Shown here piece by piece: positions 2,520-34,186 of a DNA stretch of 34,813 nucleotides. Where the stretch lies: positions 1-34,813 of the forward strand of contig JAKAFI010000004.1 of assembly GCA_021818005.1 (NCBI GenBank), given 5' to 3'. This DNA is from Acidobacteriota bacterium (GTDB lineage: Bacteria; Acidobacteriota; Thermoanaerobaculia; Thermoanaerobaculales; Thermoanaerobaculaceae). A program made the translations under genes and the position numbers. The notes beneath the pieces were generated by a model, which was not told the DNA's origin, made no database searches, and saw only the letters and a list, made by a program, of their open reading frames with translations. The first letter of the stretch is position 1. Each line of letters begins with the position of its first letter.

Positions 2520-3310
2520 GCCGCCTTCGCCCCCTTCCGCCATCCCGACAGGTACAGGCAGGCGCGGAACGCGACCCAGTCGTCCTCCGTGACCTCGGCC
2601 GGGTAGAGCTTCGTGCCCCCGTCGGTGACGTGGAGGATCCCGAACCGCTCGATCTCGGGCAGCGGGTAGCGTTCGGGGTCGCCGACGCGCGCGATGAACT
2701 CCGCGCGGCTGTACGCCGCGAGCTGGAGGCGCATGTCGTCGTACACGCGCCCATCCGGCCACGCGACCGACTTCGACGTCTTCCAGTCGAGCAGCCAGGT
2801 CGCCGTCTCGCCGTCGGTCGTGATGCGCGCCACGAGGTCGCACGTCCCGCCGAACCCGAGCGTCTCGTTGATGAGGTACGCCTCGACCTCGAGGGGCTCG
2901 ACGGCATGCTCGTTCAGCCACGTCCGCGCCCCGGCGATGGCGGGGGCGTCCTCGGCCGCGATGTCCGTCGGCTCGCGGCGCAGGATCGACTCGAGCGTGG
3001 CGTGGATGCGCGACCCGCGCTCGCGCCCGTTGGTGCCCTCGTTGCGGGCGGCGAGCAGGAACGCCACGGCCGCCTCGTCGTTGCCAGCCTCACGATCCGC
3101 GAGCAGGCGCTCGGCGTGCGCCAGTGCCGCCAGCGCGATCTGCTCCTTGTGCCAGCGCAGGAGCGCCGGCTTGTCGAGGACGTCGGTGACGGTCGTCACG
3201 CCTGGCCAGGGGCCCGCGCCATTGAAGTAGTAGAGATGCCGCGGCGTGCGGTGGACGCCGGCCGTCGGCAGGTCGGTCGTGCGGCGCGGGCGGGCGGCGG
3301 TGATCGTCAT
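2516..3310 (-). CDS. PD-(D/E)XK (RecB/Cas4-like) nuclease
   Basis: GFGGTCDLVARI...WLLDWKTSKS...MRLQLAAYSRAEF motif series. Confidence 0.75.
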   Translation of the reverse strand: MTITAARPRRTTDLPTAGVHRTPRHLYYFNGAGPWPGVTTVTDVLDKPALLRWHKEQIALAALAHAERLLADREAGNDEAAVAFLLAARNEGTNGRERGSRIHATLESILRREPTDIAAEDAPAIAGARTWLNEHAVEPLEVEAYLINETLGFGGTCDLVARITTDGETATWLLDWKTSKSVAWPDGRVYDDMRLQLAAYSRAEFIARVGDPERYPLPEIERFGILHVTDGGTKLYPAEVTEDDWVAFRACLYLSGWRKGAKAA

Positions 3311-5343
3311 GCGGGTTCTCCCTCCGGGTAGCAGGCGAGACAGGTCCACCCGTCCGGCGTCTGTCGGTGGTAGCTCTGGTGGTGGTCGTAGTCGCGGCAG
3401 GGGTTCAGCCACTCGGCCTCACCCGCGCGTGTGTGTCCCCGATCACTCGAATCACTCTCGGCCTCGCGCGTGTATCCCGAATCACTCTGTTCACTCTGTG
3501 AGTGAGTCGAGTGAAGGGGGGTATTAGGGAGATCGAGAGTGATTCGGGAGTGACTCGGAGTGACCAGGCCGACTCGCGCGACGACGTAGCCGTGCCCGGT
3601 GCGGGCCACGGCGCCCGTTCGCACGAGCTCCTCGACCATGTGCTGAACGTTCGTCCTCTCCTTGCCGATCCGATCCGCGATGGCCTTCGGATAGATCGGA
3701 CCCTCGTCCTCGATGACCTGGTAGACCTCGCCGCGGTCGAACGAGGCGCCCGAGAGCGAGTCGGGGGCGACGTGCCAGATCAGGTCGTCGAACGTCACCG
3801 CGACCTGCGCGTCGGCGATGTCGCGCCCCGTGGCGTGGATCGTCCCGAGCCGCTCGAGCGGGCTGCGCTTGATGACCACGATCGTGTCGGCGGATCCCGT
3901 GATCCCGTAGGTACCCGACACCGAGGCGAGGAAGTCGTCCGCGCTCTCCTTGCGCGCGTGGTGGACGATCACCAGCGCCACGGTCCGGTTGCGGAACAGG
4001 TCCTGGAGCCGGGCAAGGTGCTGCACGTCGACCTCGTAGGCCCCCTGACGACCCGACGTGGTCGGGCGCACCTTGCCCAGCGTGTCGATCGCCACCATCA
4101 CGGCGTCGGGGTGCTCGTCGAGCCAGGCCGCGATGTCCTCTTCCAGCCCTTCCCCGATCTTGTGGGCGTCCCAGCGCACCTCGAGCCGGCCGCGCGGCAT
4201 CGTGCGTCCGGCGAGGGCCGCGCGCAGGCGATCCTGCCCGCGCCGCTGGCCGTCCTCGAGGGCGAGATAGAGCACGCTGCCCGGCGTCACGCGGCGCCCC
4301 AGCAGGTCGCCCCCGATGGATGCCTCGACGGCGATCTGGTAGACGAGGCAGGACTTCCCGACCTTCGGGCGCGAGGCGAGAATCGTCGTGCCCTCGGGGA
4401 CGAGGTCCGGCACGAGCCAGCGCAGCGGCGGGAGCTCCAGCTCCAGCAGATCGGCGGCATCCATCCCGGGCCCGACCGGGCGTGGCACGGGGCGCGTCGC
4501 GAGCGGCGGCCCAAGCCGCTCGGCGGTGCCCTTCCACGCCCGGTCGAAGCGGGAGCGGATGTCGGGCTCGGAGAGCGGGTCGGCGAAGCGCGGGGCGAGC
4601 ACGGTCAACACGCCGGCCAGCACCTCGTCACGCCCCATGCCGCGCATGTAGCGGCTCGCGATGTAGTCGCGGATCGCGTCGTACCGGCTGCCGCGGTAGC
4701 CCGGTTCGGGCAGCTCGTAGCCGCCCGTGATCTCGATCAGCGCGGCGCGCTCCGGGGCGGGCGGGGTGATGACGTCCTGCGCCCATGCCTCCGGCAGTTC
4801 GGCGATGTCGAAGACGTCCTCGGGCTCGTACTCGACCCCCGAGGCGTGGACGGAGCGGGGCCCGATGACGTACCCCGCGCCCTGCCCGGAACCCCAGCGC
4901 GTGACGTAGCCCCACAGCTGCCCGAGGGGGCGCGGCAGCGCGTCGGGCCAGCGCAGGAAGACGTGCTCCCCGTGCGCGGTGCGCGTGCGGAGCGTCGGCG
5001 GCAGCGCGCCCAGGCGGCGCTCGAGCTCGCCGAGCCGGGCAACCCCGTCGCCGTCCACGTCGAGCGTGAAGACGCCGTCGGGGCAGACGAGCCCGTAGTT
5101 CGGCAGCGAGCCGGCCGAGAGGAACGTGCGGATGCGCTCGGGGTCGCGGGTGGCGTCGTGGAACCCGCGCTGCGTGATGGGGTGCTTGCCCGCGTCGTCG
5201 CAGGCGGCGCCCTTCGGGCAATGGCAGACGCCGTCGAGGTCCGCGCTCCAGACCGGGAAGATCCCGAAGCCGCGCTCGGCGAACCACAGCGCCGCGCGGA
5301 TCCTGTCCTCGGAGGACGGACGGGGGCGGACCTCGACGGGCAT
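3307..5343 (-). CDS. Bifunctional DNA primase/polymerase fused to RepA-like helicase ATPase
   Basis: N-term MPVEVRPRPSSEDRIRAALWFAERGFGIFPVW...GKHPITQRGFHDATRD; Walker A ASRPKVGKSCL, Walker B-like AVMVAIDTLGKV. Confidence 0.85.
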   Translation of the reverse strand: MPVEVRPRPSSEDRIRAALWFAERGFGIFPVWSADLDGVCHCPKGAACDDAGKHPITQRGFHDATRDPERIRTFLSAGSLPNYGLVCPDGVFTLDVDGDGVARLGELERRLGALPPTLRTRTAHGEHVFLRWPDALPRPLGQLWGYVTRWGSGQGAGYVIGPRSVHASGVEYEPEDVFDIAELPEAWAQDVITPPAPERAALIEITGGYELPEPGYRGSRYDAIRDYIASRYMRGMGRDEVLAGVLTVLAPRFADPLSEPDIRSRFDRAWKGTAERLGPPLATRPVPRPVGPGMDAADLLELELPPLRWLVPDLVPEGTTILASRPKVGKSCLVYQIAVEASIGGDLLGRRVTPGSVLYLALEDGQRRGQDRLRAALAGRTMPRGRLEVRWDAHKIGEGLEEDIAAWLDEHPDAVMVAIDTLGKVRPTTSGRQGAYEVDVQHLARLQDLFRNRTVALVIVHHARKESADDFLASVSGTYGITGSADTIVVIKRSPLERLGTIHATGRDIADAQVAVTFDDLIWHVAPDSLSGASFDRGEVYQVIEDEGPIYPKAIADRIGKERTNVQHMVEELVRTGAVARTGHGYVVARVGLVTPSHSRITLDLPNTPLHSTHSQSEQSDSGYTREAESDSSDRGHTRAGEAEWLNPCRDYDHHQSYHRQTPDGWTCLACYPEGEPA

Positions 5344-5353
5344 CACGGGCGGG

Positions 5354-7394: not shown

Positions 7395-7769
7395 ATGGAC
7401 GACGCGACGTATTACCGGCGACAGGGGTTCTGGCTCCGCATGGCTCGTGAGCGTGCGGGGAAGAACCAGGCGGGCGCCGCCGAGCAGCTCGGGCTGGCCA
7501 AGACCTCGAAGGGGACCGTCTCGGACTACGAGAACGGCGTGCAGATCGCGCCCCAGCAGGCGCTCCGCACGCTGGCCCGCTGGTACGGCGTGCCGATCGA
7601 CCTGTTCCTGAGTCCGCCGATCACGTCAGACGAGGTGATCGAGCGCCTGCTCGATGAAGCATCTCGCGCCGGAGAAGCCGCAGAGCGGCGGGATTGGGAA
7701 ACGGGGGAGGATCGATCCCCAGCAGCCGACGACGGGCCAGACGACGCGCCCGGTAGGTTGTCAGCGTAA
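7395..7769 (+). CDS. XRE-family HTH repressor (CI-like)
   Basis: MDDATYYRRQGFWLRMARERAGKNQAGAAEQLGLAKTSKGTVSDYENGVQIAPQQALRTLARWYGVPIDLFL. Confidence 0.85.
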   Translation: MDDATYYRRQGFWLRMARERAGKNQAGAAEQLGLAKTSKGTVSDYENGVQIAPQQALRTLARWYGVPIDLFLSPPITSDEVIERLLDEASRAGEAAERRDWETGEDRSPAADDGPDDAPGRLSA

Positions 7770-7827
7770 GTTCGGCCTGGATGGCCTCGATGATCGCGGG
7801 ATCGGTGACAGGCTCCCTGAACGCCAT
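7621..7827 (-). CDS. Possible small protein antisense to the repressor 3' end
   Basis: MAFREPVTDPAIIEAIQAELTLTTYRARRLARRRLLGIDPPPFPNP...; overlaps the + gene by 149 bp. Confidence 0.35.
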   Translation of the reverse strand: MAFREPVTDPAIIEAIQAELTLTTYRARRLARRRLLGIDPPPFPNPAALRLLRREMLHRAGARSPRLT

Positions 7828-8209
7828 GTGGACAGAACCTCTCCGTGCCGGCTCACGGACCTGCCGGCCCCGGCTGCATCGGTTTTCGAGGCCACGATGC
7901 CCGGCCCGTGCTTGCTCGCGCTGCTGCACCGTCTCGCACGAGGACGCCTTGTAGCCCCCCGGTGTGCCCTCACGCTAGAGCCTGCGAGGCGCCCCCCCCC
8001 GCGTCCCCTGTCCTTCGGCCCGTGGCGCCCTACCCGCCCGGGTCATGACTGTTGCGACAACGGGGCTATGGCGCTGTGGACACGGTGGACAAGTGGGACG
8101 CCATAGCACCTCGACCTTCACTCGCACTTATCGCAGGTGGGCGTGTCAGGTTGCGTGGCGCGGGCGTATCGTGGGCGGGCGTCCCACGAGAGAGGGAGGG
8201 TCGCATTCC

Positions 8210-8644
8210 ATGCAGGCACAGCCGTCGGTCATCGTCCTGAAGTCGGGACCGAACATCCTCGTGCGGTTCGTGTGGTGGTTGCTCATCGGCTGGTGGGCGT
8301 CGGGCTTCGTCATCGCCCTGGCGTGGGTCTGCCTCGCCCTGGTGGTCACGATCCCGGCCGGGATCTGGCTCATCAACCATCTGCCGTCCGTGCTGACGCT
8401 GCGTCCGCGCACGCAGACCTGGACACTCGGGCAGGATGCCGAAGGCCGCATCGTGACGGCGCGGCACGGGCGCCCGCAGGTGTTCTGGCTCTGGCGCGGG
8501 CTGTGGTTCGTCGTCGTGGGTTGGTGGGCCTCGGCCCTATGGATGGCCGCCGCCTGGCTCGTGCAGTTCACCGTGGTCGGCCTGCCGATCGCGATGCTGA
8601 TGTTCAACCGCACGCCCTTCGTGGCGAACCTGTACCGCTACTAG
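8210..8644 (+). CDS. YccF-like (DUF307) membrane protein; candidate lysogenic-conversion gene
   Basis: MQAQPSVIVLKSGPNILVRFVWWLLIGWWASGF...TVVGLPIAMLMFNRTPFVANLYRY; SD-like GAGGGAGGG upstream. Confidence 0.75.
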   Translation: MQAQPSVIVLKSGPNILVRFVWWLLIGWWASGFVIALAWVCLALVVTIPAGIWLINHLPSVLTLRPRTQTWTLGQDAEGRIVTARHGRPQVFWLWRGLWFVVVGWWASALWMAAAWLVQFTVVGLPIAMLMFNRTPFVANLYRY

Positions 8645-14167: not shown

Positions 14168-14538
14168 CGGGGATTGACCTCCGTGAGGGTGACCTCGAAG
14201 GCGACGAGGCCCGGTGCCGCGTATTGCATCTCCGAGAGGTCAACCGCGACGGTGACAGCAGCCGCCGTCGAATACTGGTCCCACGAGAAGGTGGGGAACG
14301 TTCCGGCGGCAACAGCGGCCCGCCAGAGATCGGCGATGGCGTCATAGTCCGCCTGGGTCGCATATCGCCAACCGAGGACGTAGACCCAGGCGTAGGAGAG
14401 GACGGTCCGCCGGAGCACGCCTCCGATCGTGCGGCGGGAGATGCTCCGCTCGTCCCGCGTGCGCGTGTTCTTGGCGTCCGCCTCCGGCGACGGCAGCGTG
14501 AGCGTCCGCCCGGGCAGGCTCAGAGTCGGCGCGCCCAT
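14164..14538 (-). CDS. Tail-module hypothetical protein (distal-tail position)
   Basis: MGAPTLSLPGRTLTLPSPEADAKNTRTRDERSISRR... Confidence 0.65.
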   Translation of the reverse strand: MGAPTLSLPGRTLTLPSPEADAKNTRTRDERSISRRTIGGVLRRTVLSYAWVYVLGWRYATQADYDAIADLWRAAVAAGTFPTFSWDQYSTAAAVTVAVDLSEMQYAAPGLVAFEVTLTEVNPR

Positions 14539-16442
14539 CAGGAACCCCCTCGCACCGGCTGCAACGTCCGCCCGCGGCGGAACGCCTCCTCCTCGAGATA
14601 GCCCCACAACTGGCGCGCGAACGAGCGCGCCTCGGCCTCGGAGGCGTTCATCGTCTGGACGTGGAAGTGGACCTCGCCGACGCTGATCGCACCGCCACCG
14701 CCGACGGGCGTGACCGTCTCCCCGCCGTGGACGACCGCGAGCGCGGGCGCCCCGACCGGGCCCGGCACGACGCCGCCGGTTGCGAAGCCGCCCACGAAGT
14801 TCGTGATGCCGCCGATGGCGTTGCCGATGGCCCCGCCCACGTTGCCCGCGATGTCGCCACCGAGCTTCATGCCGGGGATCTTCGAGACGGTGTCGATGGC
14901 CTCCTTGGCCTTCGTGATGACGGTCCCGATCGCGTCGACGACGAGCTGGATGGCGGCCCGCGCCACGTCGAAGCCGGCCCCGATGATCTTCCCGAGCCCG
15001 CCGATGAAGTTCATGGCGCTCTTGTTCGCGCTGATCTCGTCGCCCATCTTGCCCAGCCAGTCGACGACCGCGCTGATCGCGTCGCCGGCCAGGCCGAAGG
15101 CCGTGCCGATGAGGTCGGCTGCCGAGCGCAGGACGTCCATGAGCGGCTTGTTCGAGGTAATCCAGGTGGCGAGGCCGGTGAGGAACCCGATGGTCGCCGA
15201 GATGACCTTGCCGGCCGCGGCGACGGCCTTGTTGAGCCCGCCCTCCCAGACGCGGATGGCGAAGTCCTGGATCACGGGGGCGACCTTCGTGACCATGACC
15301 GTCGCGAGGGCGCCCAGCTTCGTGGCAATGTCCACCACGGTGGGCGCCACGTCCTTGGCGACCTGCGCGCCGAACGCGGCGGCCTTCACCGCGAGGTCGA
15401 GGAACGAGGGCACGAGCGCCTTCATCTGGTCGAGCAGCGGCCCGACCGCGGTGCGCTGGAAGACGAGCAGCTGGTCGATCAGCGGCGAGAGCGCCTGCGC
15501 GACCGGGTTGCCCTGCGCCGCGAGCTCGCGGAAGTCGTCGGCGAGCACGCCGAGGTCGCCGCCCTGCGAGGCGACGTCGGCGAAGAGGCCGCCGATCAGG
15601 CTGGCGACCGGCTCGAGGGCCGGGAAGATCTGCTGGCTGAGGACGTTCGAGAGGTTGAGGAGGACCGGCAGCACGGCCTCGGCGAGCGACTTCTGCACCT
15701 CGCCCCAGGCGAGGCCGAGCTTCGCCACCGCGCCCGCCGCGCTGTTGCCGTAGGCGACCGTCGAGCCGCCGAACTCGCGGTTGAGTTCGCCCAGGATGAT
15801 CTTCTGTGCGTCGAGCGTCTTGCCGTGCTCGACGAGCGTCTTGATCTGGTCCTTCTGCTGCTGGGTGAACGTGACGCCGACGCGTTGCAGGGCTGTCACG
15901 CCCTTGATCGGGTCGTTCAGGGCCTTGCCGAGCTGCATGGCCGAACTCGCGCCGTCCTGCCCGAGCGCGATCGACATGTCGAGGGCCGTCTTCGTGGCCC
16001 GGGTGAAGACATCGTTGCCCTTGCCCGCCTCGTTCCGCACGTTCGTGAACGTCAGGAGCATGTTGGCCGTGCTGCGCGTGACCTGGTCGTCGATGCCCGA
16101 CTTCAGGCGCAGCGAGGCGGCGAGGCCCTCGATGTCCTTCTGCGTGACCTTCGCGACGCCGCCGGTCGACTTGATGACGGCCGCCGTCTGGGCCATCTTC
16201 TGCTGCTCGTCGACGAGCGACTTGGCGCCGAAGGCGATCTGCGAGCCGAGCGCGGCGATCCCGGCCAGGGCCGCCCCCGCGGCCACCTTGCCGAGATCGA
16301 CGATCGCCCCACCGGCGGCCTTCAGCCCGCCGCCGACCTTGCCCGCGGCGCTGTGCAGCCCGCCGAGCGACTTCGTGGCCTTGCCGATCTCGGCCGACGC
16401 CTCGTCACGCGCCCGGACGATCAGGGACAGGATGTCATCCAT
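14538..16442 (-). CDS. Tail tape measure protein
   Basis: 634 aa, MDDILSLIVRARDEASAEIGKATKSLGGL..., alternating helical/hydrophobic segments, downstream of chaperone frameshift gene. Confidence 0.9.
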   Translation of the reverse strand: MDDILSLIVRARDEASAEIGKATKSLGGLHSAAGKVGGGLKAAGGAIVDLGKVAAGAALAGIAALGSQIAFGAKSLVDEQQKMAQTAAVIKSTGGVAKVTQKDIEGLAASLRLKSGIDDQVTRSTANMLLTFTNVRNEAGKGNDVFTRATKTALDMSIALGQDGASSAMQLGKALNDPIKGVTALQRVGVTFTQQQKDQIKTLVEHGKTLDAQKIILGELNREFGGSTVAYGNSAAGAVAKLGLAWGEVQKSLAEAVLPVLLNLSNVLSQQIFPALEPVASLIGGLFADVASQGGDLGVLADDFRELAAQGNPVAQALSPLIDQLLVFQRTAVGPLLDQMKALVPSFLDLAVKAAAFGAQVAKDVAPTVVDIATKLGALATVMVTKVAPVIQDFAIRVWEGGLNKAVAAAGKVISATIGFLTGLATWITSNKPLMDVLRSAADLIGTAFGLAGDAISAVVDWLGKMGDEISANKSAMNFIGGLGKIIGAGFDVARAAIQLVVDAIGTVITKAKEAIDTVSKIPGMKLGGDIAGNVGGAIGNAIGGITNFVGGFATGGVVPGPVGAPALAVVHGGETVTPVGGGGAISVGEVHFHVQTMNASEAEARSFARQLWGYLEEEAFRRGRTLQPVRGGS

Positions 16443-17066
16443 CGCGCCCCTCCAGCGCCTCCTGGCGGCTCTTCGCGAGCGCCGCGAGGTGCACGAGGTA
16501 CTCGGCCACGGGCGCCGGGGTCTCGAGCTGTTCCATCACCTGCCGGTAGCTCGCCTTCTGCTGCCACATGAGCCAGGCCACGTACAGGTCGGTGGGCCAG
16601 CTGGGATCCGGCTCACCGGTGGCCAGGGCACCGATCAGGGTGCCCGTGAAGCGTTTGGGTCGGCCCGTTCCCCGGCGAGGGCCGCCTCCTGTGCCTCGAA
16701 GAGCGCCGCGAGGTCGTCGGCGTCCATGTCCTTCACCCCGGCCGGGAACTCGATCGCATCGCCGTCCGGGTTCGTCACGCCGTCCCAGCCCCACGCGCAG
16801 GCCGACACGACGTTGATGCGGTACTGCGTCACGGCGTCGAGCGCGGCGGCCGGGTCGCCGAGGGCGTTGACGAGCGCGAGCGGGTCCGACTCGGGCGTGA
16901 GTGCCGCCAGCTGGTCGGCCGGCAGCACGCGCGTGAGCCCGAGCATGGCCGCCACGCGCAGGCGGTTCTGTTCGACGGAGAGGCGGCGGCGCACCCACGC
17001 CGTGCCGCCGTGCGGCAGCTCGACCGCCTCGAGGTTCGGGTGGACGGTCGCGTCGGAGGGGCGCAT
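16435..17066 (-). CDS. Tail assembly chaperone, -1 frameshift fusion (GT-like), predicted 210 aa, shift at 16653
   Basis: -1 frame extension RFTGTLIGALATGEPDPSWPTDLYVAWLMWQQKASYRQVMEQLETPAPVAEYLVHLAALAKSRQEALEGRDG reached from C CCA AAC. Confidence 0.8.
16626..16659 (-). promoter_or_regulatory. Programmed -1 ribosomal frameshift signal: slippery CCCAAAC + 7-nt spacer + hairpin
   Basis: Minus strand CCCAAAC-GCTTCAC-GGGCACC-CTGATC-GGTGCCC; stem perfect 7 bp; 0-frame TGA lies in the loop. Confidence 0.85.
16635..17066 (-). CDS. Tail assembly chaperone, 0-frame product (G-like)
   Basis: MRPSDATVHPNLEAVELPHGGTAWVRRRL...ERADPNASRAP; between major tail protein and tape measure. Confidence 0.8.
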   Translation of the reverse strand: MRPSDATVHPNLEAVELPHGGTAWVRRRLSVEQNRLRVAAMLGLTRVLPADQLAALTPESDPLALVNALGDPAAALDAVTQYRINVVSACAWGWDGVTNPDGDAIEFPAGVKDMDADDLAALFEAQEAALAGERADPNASRAP

Positions 17067-18061
17067 CAGGCGAGCGCCGCCAGACCGTTGACGTGGACGG
17101 CCTGCCAGTCGGCCGCCAGCCCGGTGTCGTACAGGGCCGACAGTTCGAGCTCGGCCGTGATGAGCCCGTTGTCGTCGCCCATGGCGAACGTGCGCCAGGC
17201 TCCGGCGATGTCGAGCTGCGCCCGGTAGTTCGAGCCGCCCAGCACGGCCCCCGTGCGCACGAGGCGCAGCTTCTTGATGTTCGCCGCGCGGAAGTCGTCG
17301 TACTCGGTCGTGGCGCTGAACTCGGCCACCACCTTCGCCGAGACCTTGCGCGCCTCGACGAGGGCCGTCTTCGCCGGGGCGTACAGGTCGCCGCCCGTGG
17401 CGTTGCCGTCGAGCGTGTTGCGATCGACGACGCCGTCCTCGATCGTGACGTCGGCCGACACGACACGCCCGACGATCTCGGTCGTGCCGAACGTCGTCGT
17501 GTCGACGTAGACCTTCGTACCGCTGCCCTCGACGTGCGTCACGCTCCGCGCCGAGAGCGCCGCCGTCTTCGCCTGCTTCTTCACGACGAGCCCGAGGAGG
17601 TCGACGTCGGCCCGCCAGACGTCGTTCTGGCGGATCTGGAGGGCGAGCTTCTTGCCGGTGCAGCCGGACACCTGGAACTCGGTCGGCCAGGTGTCCTTGC
17701 CGCCCAGCTCGATCGTGGCGCGCTTCTTGTCGTCGGCCGCGTCGTTGGGCTTCTGCGTCCAGGTCTTGTCGGCGCCCGCGCCCACGCCCGCCGTGACCGG
17801 CGTGGCGAAGAGGTTGAGCCACCAGGGCGCGTCGTCGTAGGACCAGGGCAGCTTCTTGAAGCTGACCGCGGCGTGGCGGGCGCCCGGGTATGCCTTGTGG
17901 CCGGTCGCGTAGGACCCGGCGACGTGGACGATGATCGCCTCGGCGCCCTCGTCGAGGGAGACCGAGCCCGGCTCCATGTCGATGACACGGGTGGCCGGGA
18001 CCGCCGTGCCCGCGATCGATTCGTAGCCGGCCTGCGCGATGGCCAGGGTGAGGACGGGCAT
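17066..18061 (-). CDS. Major tail (tube) protein
   Basis: MPVLTLAIAQAGYESIAGTAVPATRVIDMEPGSVSLDEG...; gene position directly upstream of chaperone/TMP. Confidence 0.75.
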   Translation of the reverse strand: MPVLTLAIAQAGYESIAGTAVPATRVIDMEPGSVSLDEGAEAIIVHVAGSYATGHKAYPGARHAAVSFKKLPWSYDDAPWWLNLFATPVTAGVGAGADKTWTQKPNDAADDKKRATIELGGKDTWPTEFQVSGCTGKKLALQIRQNDVWRADVDLLGLVVKKQAKTAALSARSVTHVEGSGTKVYVDTTTFGTTEIVGRVVSADVTIEDGVVDRNTLDGNATGGDLYAPAKTALVEARKVSAKVVAEFSATTEYDDFRAANIKKLRLVRTGAVLGGSNYRAQLDIAGAWRTFAMGDDNGLITAELELSALYDTGLAADWQAVHVNGLAALA

Positions 18062-32927: not shown

Positions 32928-33101
32928 TCAGGAACGCTTTCGGGGCCGTCGATACGGGAGCGCGGGCGATGACCCGCCCAGCTTCCCGTTCAGCCAGTAG
33001 ACGAAGCGCGTGAAGCCGAGCTCGAGGTCGAGGTACGCGAGGAGGATGCACCAAGCGCGCCAGGCACGGCGGTACTGACCCACGATCGTCTTGCCGCTCA
33101 C
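32928..33101 (-). CDS. Small hypothetical protein (GTG start)
   Basis: MSGKTIVGQYRRAWRAWCILLAYLDLELGFTRFVYWLNGKLGG...; GTGA overlap with integrase stop. Confidence 0.5.
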   Translation of the reverse strand: MSGKTIVGQYRRAWRAWCILLAYLDLELGFTRFVYWLNGKLGGSSPALPYRRPRKRS

Positions 33102-34186
33102 CCTGCGTCCTCCTTCACCACCGGCAGGTCCAGCGTCGCGACCGCGTCGCGCTGGAGCTCCGGCACGACGTGCTCGTAGATCCGTGTCGACGACTTCGAG
33201 CGGTGCCCGAGCTGCGCGCCGATCACGCGCTCGTGGACGCCGGCGGCGAGCATGAGCGTCGCCGCGCCGTGGCGCAGCAGGTGCGGGTGCAGCCTCGGCT
33301 GGTTCTTCCGCTCCAGGAGCTCCGGCAGGGCATGCGAGACGCTCGATGTCTGGAGCCGCGCGAAGTGCCCGGCGCGTGTCCGTCGCGGGCCGAAGAACAC
33401 CGGCTCGTCGTCGCCCCGGCGCGGGGCGCGGGCGAGCGCGAGGCGCAGCGCGGCGACCGCGTCGGCCGACAGCGGGACCGAGCGGGCGACCGTCTTCGAC
33501 ACGCGGACGCGGACGAACGCGTGCACCAGGTCGAGGTCGCGCTGGTCGAGCCCGCATGCCTCGCCCAGCCGCATCCCGGTCCCGAGCAGCAGGCGCACGA
33601 TCGGCTCGACCCACTCGCCCTTCACCGCGGCGAGGATCGCATCCCGGTCGGCGCGCGACATGGGCACGATGGGATCGCGCTCGACGCGCGGCAGCATCAC
33701 GCCGTCGGCCGGGTTATCAACGATCGAGCGCCGTCGCTTCGCCTGCTCGAGCGCGTTGTGCAACGTCGAGATGATGCGGTGGACCGTGGCGGGGGAGCAG
33801 CCGGCCTGGAGGCGCTCGGCCACGAGGCGCTCGACGTCGCGCGGGCGGAGGCGGGCCACGACGATGCCGCCGAGGAGCGGCGAGATGTGCAGCCGGACGT
33901 GGATCTCGTAGGCCTGGCGCGTGCGCGGACGCAGCGACGGGCCGTAGGACGCGAGCCATGTCCGCAGGTAGGCGTCGAGCGTCATCGTGGCCGGGTCGCC
34001 TCCGGCCCCGAAGATGCGCCGCAGCGTGTCGAGTTCGTCGTTCGCGGCGTCTTCGGAATCGGCGACGCGATGCACGCGCCGGCGCTTGCCGTTCACCACG
34101 CCGAGCGGGAAGAACACCTCCCAGCGCCGCGTCGCCTTCGAGTACGAGATCGATCCCTCGCCACGATGCAACCGACGCCGAGCCAT
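33098..34186 (-). CDS. int: Tyrosine-type integrase
   Basis: MARRRLHRGEGSISYSKATRRWEVFFPLG...; catalytic-box pattern GTGMRLGEACGL, HPHLLRHGAATLML, LGHRSKSSTRIYEHV. Confidence 0.93.
   Translation of the reverse strand: MARRRLHRGEGSISYSKATRRWEVFFPLGVVNGKRRRVHRVADSEDAANDELDTLRRIFGAGGDPATMTLDAYLRTWLASYGPSLRPRTRQAYEIHVRLHISPLLGGIVVARLRPRDVERLVAERLQAGCSPATVHRIISTLHNALEQAKRRRSIVDNPADGVMLPRVERDPIVPMSRADRDAILAAVKGEWVEPIVRLLLGTGMRLGEACGLDQRDLDLVHAFVRVRVSKTVARSVPLSADAVAALRLALARAPRRGDDEPVFFGPRRTRAGHFARLQTSSVSHALPELLERKNQPRLHPHLLRHGAATLMLAAGVHERVIGAQLGHRSKSSTRIYEHVVPELQRDAVATLDLPVVKEDAG

Follow-up and report, generated by a model that had tools for sequence, protein, structure and literature searches.

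Long-tailed phages widely retain low-level -1 frameshifting between G and T, even where their sequences show little similarity (reviewed in PMC5009743). In the gpG/gpGT system of phage lambda the chaperone gene lies directly before the tape measure gene, has an XXXYYYZ heptamer near the end of G and is followed by a short -1 extension; all of these features are shared by the locus described here, as is, by prediction, a minor fusion product (PMC5009743). The PRFect study reports 2,397 tail assembly chaperone genes of the joined kind in 3,679 SEA-PHAGES genomes and gives a consensus heptamer with any X, with A or U as Y and with A, U or C as Z (PMC10885494). In two further described phages, Gordonia phage Francois and Microbacterium phage IndyLu, the tail assembly chaperone CDS is annotated as two joined parts and precedes the gene of a tape measure protein related to ours, but their chaperone sequences differ from those of our locus; the Francois heptamer is GGGAAAA, and IndyLu has no canonical heptamer in the pairs scanned. 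The lambda G/GT heptamer is GGGAAAG, whereas that of our locus is CCCAAAC, which fits the PRFect consensus. Our locus further differs from lambda in its strong hairpin, the loop of which holds the 0-frame stop, and in encoding G and T proteins that lack detectable similarity to any chaperone family searched. A literature search found no paper on frameshifting at CCCAAAC, the matches to this string being unrelated by title.

The window, i.e. the whole stretch of 34,813 nucleotides that was analysed, is a single contig (C74) of a draft assembly of an Acidobacteriota bacterium comprising 390 contigs and 3.2 Mb. It has a GC content of 71% and represents all or a large portion of the genome of a temperate tailed phage, with genes for a terminase, portal, maturation protease, HK97-type capsid, head-tail adaptor, HK97-gp10-like protein, tape measure, endolysin, primase-helicase and integrase. 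The tyrosine integrase (33098-34171, minus strand) lies near one contig end, and the element is therefore a temperate phage or prophage. The primase-helicase (3307-5346, minus strand) is a bifunctional protein in which a Prim-Pol domain is fused to an AAA (RecA/DnaB-like) domain. Two ORFs of 124 and 144 amino acids at 7395-8644 lie on the plus strand of this otherwise minus-strand genome, and the 144-residue product has a weak YccF-like match that falls under the cutoff. The setting of the cassette is a temperate siphophage structural operon. Downstream of it, at 14538..16442 on the minus strand, lies the gene for a tape measure protein of 634 amino acids (phrog_27166, tail length tape measure protein, 1.2e-26). 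Directly upstream, at 17066..18061 on the same strand, is a gene for a 331-residue protein, which has no PHROG match but is 25% identical over its length to a gene of a prophage from the host's phylum (G207). That gene, too, is followed by a -1 chaperone pair and by a long ORF where the tape measure would be expected, and from its position the 331-residue protein is probably the major tail protein.

The cassette as a whole occupies 16435..17066 of the minus strand. Its first part is a 0-frame ORF for a G-like tail assembly chaperone of 143 amino acids (16635..17066), the ATG of which overlaps the TGA of the upstream gene. The 3' end of this ORF reads GCC GAC CCA AAC GCT TCA CGG GCA CCC TGA, with the heptamer C CCA AAC (16653..16659) in phase with the G frame and 18 nt ahead of the 0-frame stop. 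A 7-nt spacer, GCTTCAC (16646..16652), separates it from a hairpin (16626..16645) with a perfect 7-bp stem, formed by GGGCACC (16645..16639) and GGTGCCC (16632..16626) around the loop CTGATC (16638..16633), within which the 0-frame TGA (16637..16635) is located. The T-like extension in the -1 frame (16435..16653) comprises 72 sense codons and a stop, TGA at 16437..16435, which overlaps the tape measure gene starting with ATG at 16442. The initial annotation had described the in-phase heptamer, the spacer, the stem and the stop in the loop, all of which we recover to the base, and its -1 frame of 72 codons ending at 16435 over the tape measure start is also confirmed. The interval it had assigned, 16626-17066, takes in the G ORF and the signal and leaves the T reading frame outside. 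A G-rich stretch, GGGGAACGGG (16664-16675, minus strand), precedes the heptamer by a few bases; by analogy with dnaX it could be an internal Shine-Dalgarno-like stimulator, or it may be a chance occurrence at 71% GC.

Tests of frame and codon usage indicate that the second ORF, in the -1 frame and overlapping the 3' end of G, is coding. Up to the heptamer, the G frame has a third-position GC content of 0.96 (codon-usage log-likelihood ratio of the G ORF, 45); beyond it, the -1 frame has 0.92, while the G frame 3' of the heptamer and the -1 frame 5' of it both score as non-coding, the T frame having a positive codon score only 3' of this site. When the likelihood of one -1 switch was scanned along the sequence, the best change point was the AAC codon of the heptamer (16655-16653); the neighbouring codon was just 0.6 log units below it and all remaining codons at least 3.6 below, and because the codon table was built from only three genes of the same phage, the resolution of the change point is one or two codons. 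This bears directly on the proposal that T is translated from its own start, or that the frame changes elsewhere, with CCCAAAC uninvolved. A GTG at 16581 is indeed available in the T frame, a mechanical gene call places a 48-residue ORF there, and some -1 pairs in the relatives lack a canonical heptamer. However, the heptamer, where the T-frame coding signal begins, lies about 24 codons ahead of this GTG, and a start at 16581 would hence leave a coded stretch unexplained, making such an origin of T very improbable in our assessment.

The signal itself is also improbable by chance. In a chance model using the codon usage of the phage itself, an in-phase heptamer with A or T as Y is expected in about 0.3% of 12-codon stretches, and such a heptamer followed 4-10 nt downstream by a perfect stem of at least 7 bp in about 0.005% (about 4.5e-5 per 12-codon stretch). 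The predicted fold of the 101-nt region has an energy of -46.6 kcal/mol (z = -2.7) and that of the 35-nt core -15.4 kcal/mol (z = -2.3), with the hairpin contained in the minimum-energy structure of both; a search against Rfam gave no family match. In the G207 prophage the sequence 3' of the heptamer also folds, but there is no perfect stem adjoining the site, and conservation of the hairpin of the window is accordingly not supported. The placement of the 0-frame stop in the loop is a curiosity with no demonstrated role. Conceivably, ribosomes terminating at this TGA could hold the hairpin open, such that the dwell time at the stop codon would tune slippage of the following ribosomes and set the G:GT ratio, but we regard this as a highly unlikely arrangement. 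The initial description of the signal as complete, and as a good minimal reporter with the stop in its loop, thus goes beyond the evidence.

To find relatives of G, we searched viral contigs, genome contigs, phage records and 197 related genomes, and recovered none. Neither G nor T matched a known chaperone family, G having no PHROG or Pfam family above threshold, and a single-sequence AlphaFold model of G (pLDDT 54) was too poor for a fold search. Weak matches to G in genomes (L006-L008) were rejected as relatives, as they lie in non-tail contexts, e.g. that of an ABC transporter. Queries with the portal, capsid, minor tail and upstream-gene products returned no close viral contigs. Since the G protein has no recognisable relative, conservation was tested via the neighbouring genes, with relatives being defined by the tape measure or a neighbouring tail gene rather than by the chaperone.

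On this basis we examined viral contigs with tape-measure relatives, three phage records and the prophages G010 and G207 for a pair of ORFs in -1 relation before the tape measure, one pair per locus being picked by eye. A heptamer was counted if it had A or T as Y and lay in the final stretch of the overlap, 100 nt at most. An in-phase XXXYYYZ heptamer was present in 14 of the 22 loci, all of which had been selected for the -1 overlap and which include near-duplicates (L018/L019 and L032/L043). With the window included, 15/23 pairs have one in phase as against 3/23 in each other phase, the off-phase instances being mostly A-runs. The in-phase heptamers found before the tape measure in the relatives are CCCAAAA, CCCTTTC, CCCTTTA, GGGAAAC and AAAAAAG. 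No such heptamer was found within this final stretch in L015, L017, L018, L019, L021, L033, L035 and L042; of these, L018 and L019 are the best-covered tape-measure relatives in the viral contigs and have the -1 pair with the canonical heptamer absent. In L015, L018 and L019 the T parts of the -1 chaperone pair resemble one another (CDVVYA) and G ends in ACG GGC TGA, and these loci may use another slippery motif. G207 and G010, both prophages in the host's phylum, resemble the window in having a -1 chaperone pair that ends at the tape measure or a long downstream ORF, with an in-phase CCCAAAA and a 194-nt extension in the former and an in-phase CCCTTTC and a 293-nt extension in the latter. They differ in that the heptamer lies 51-54 nt before the 0-frame stop, as opposed to 18 in the window, and their chaperone proteins are not recognisably similar to ours.

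The recurrence of this layout also speaks to whether one continuous chaperone gene has been split by a decay mutation or by an indel introduced in sequencing or assembly, with the heptamer being incidental. The window is a single contig of a 390-contig draft assembly, and no homologue of G was found that would show the frame independently, both of which leave room for such an error. Against this, the frame changes precisely at a canonical heptamer that has a correctly spaced hairpin, the relatives have a -1 break at the corresponding place with different heptamers, and the other structural genes examined are open. Hence, we attach very little weight to a disrupted gene as the source of the two frames. 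The position of the gene just before the tape measure, the -1 geometry, the frame switch at the heptamer and the like layout in relatives together support the reading, already offered in the initial annotation, of tail chaperones made by -1 slippage, and the cassette is very probably a classical lambda-type G/GT programmed frameshift.

The anatomy, the coding-frame switch, the gene context and the recurrence of the layout are the observed elements of this explanation, from which we infer slippage itself, a role for the hairpin and the functions of the proteins. Most ribosomes would end at the TGA at 16637-16635 and yield the 143-residue G-like protein. A minority would slip back by one base at C CCA AAC, with the two tRNAs shifting from CCA and AAC to pair anew with CCC and AAA, to give a G-T fusion of about 210 amino acids; its junction is predicted to be ADPN-RFTG, or ADPK-RFTG if the shift precedes filling of the A site. 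The ribosome is probably made to pause by the hairpin 7 nt further on. In E. coli, slippage is less efficient at sites with a terminal AAAC than at those with AAAG or AAAA, and a low efficiency at our AAAC site would not be surprising. By analogy with lambda, the G part would bind the tape measure protein and the T part recruit the tail tube protein, with G and G-T both serving tail assembly around the tape measure.

The phenomenon is a textbook one and ordinary for tailed phages, and our understanding of phage tail assembly is unchanged by it. What the locus adds is a clean and compact example of -1 frameshifting in a high-GC temperate phage, with a chaperone for which no sequence relatives were detected, showing that such genes are recognisable from layout, slippery site and codon-usage switch alone.
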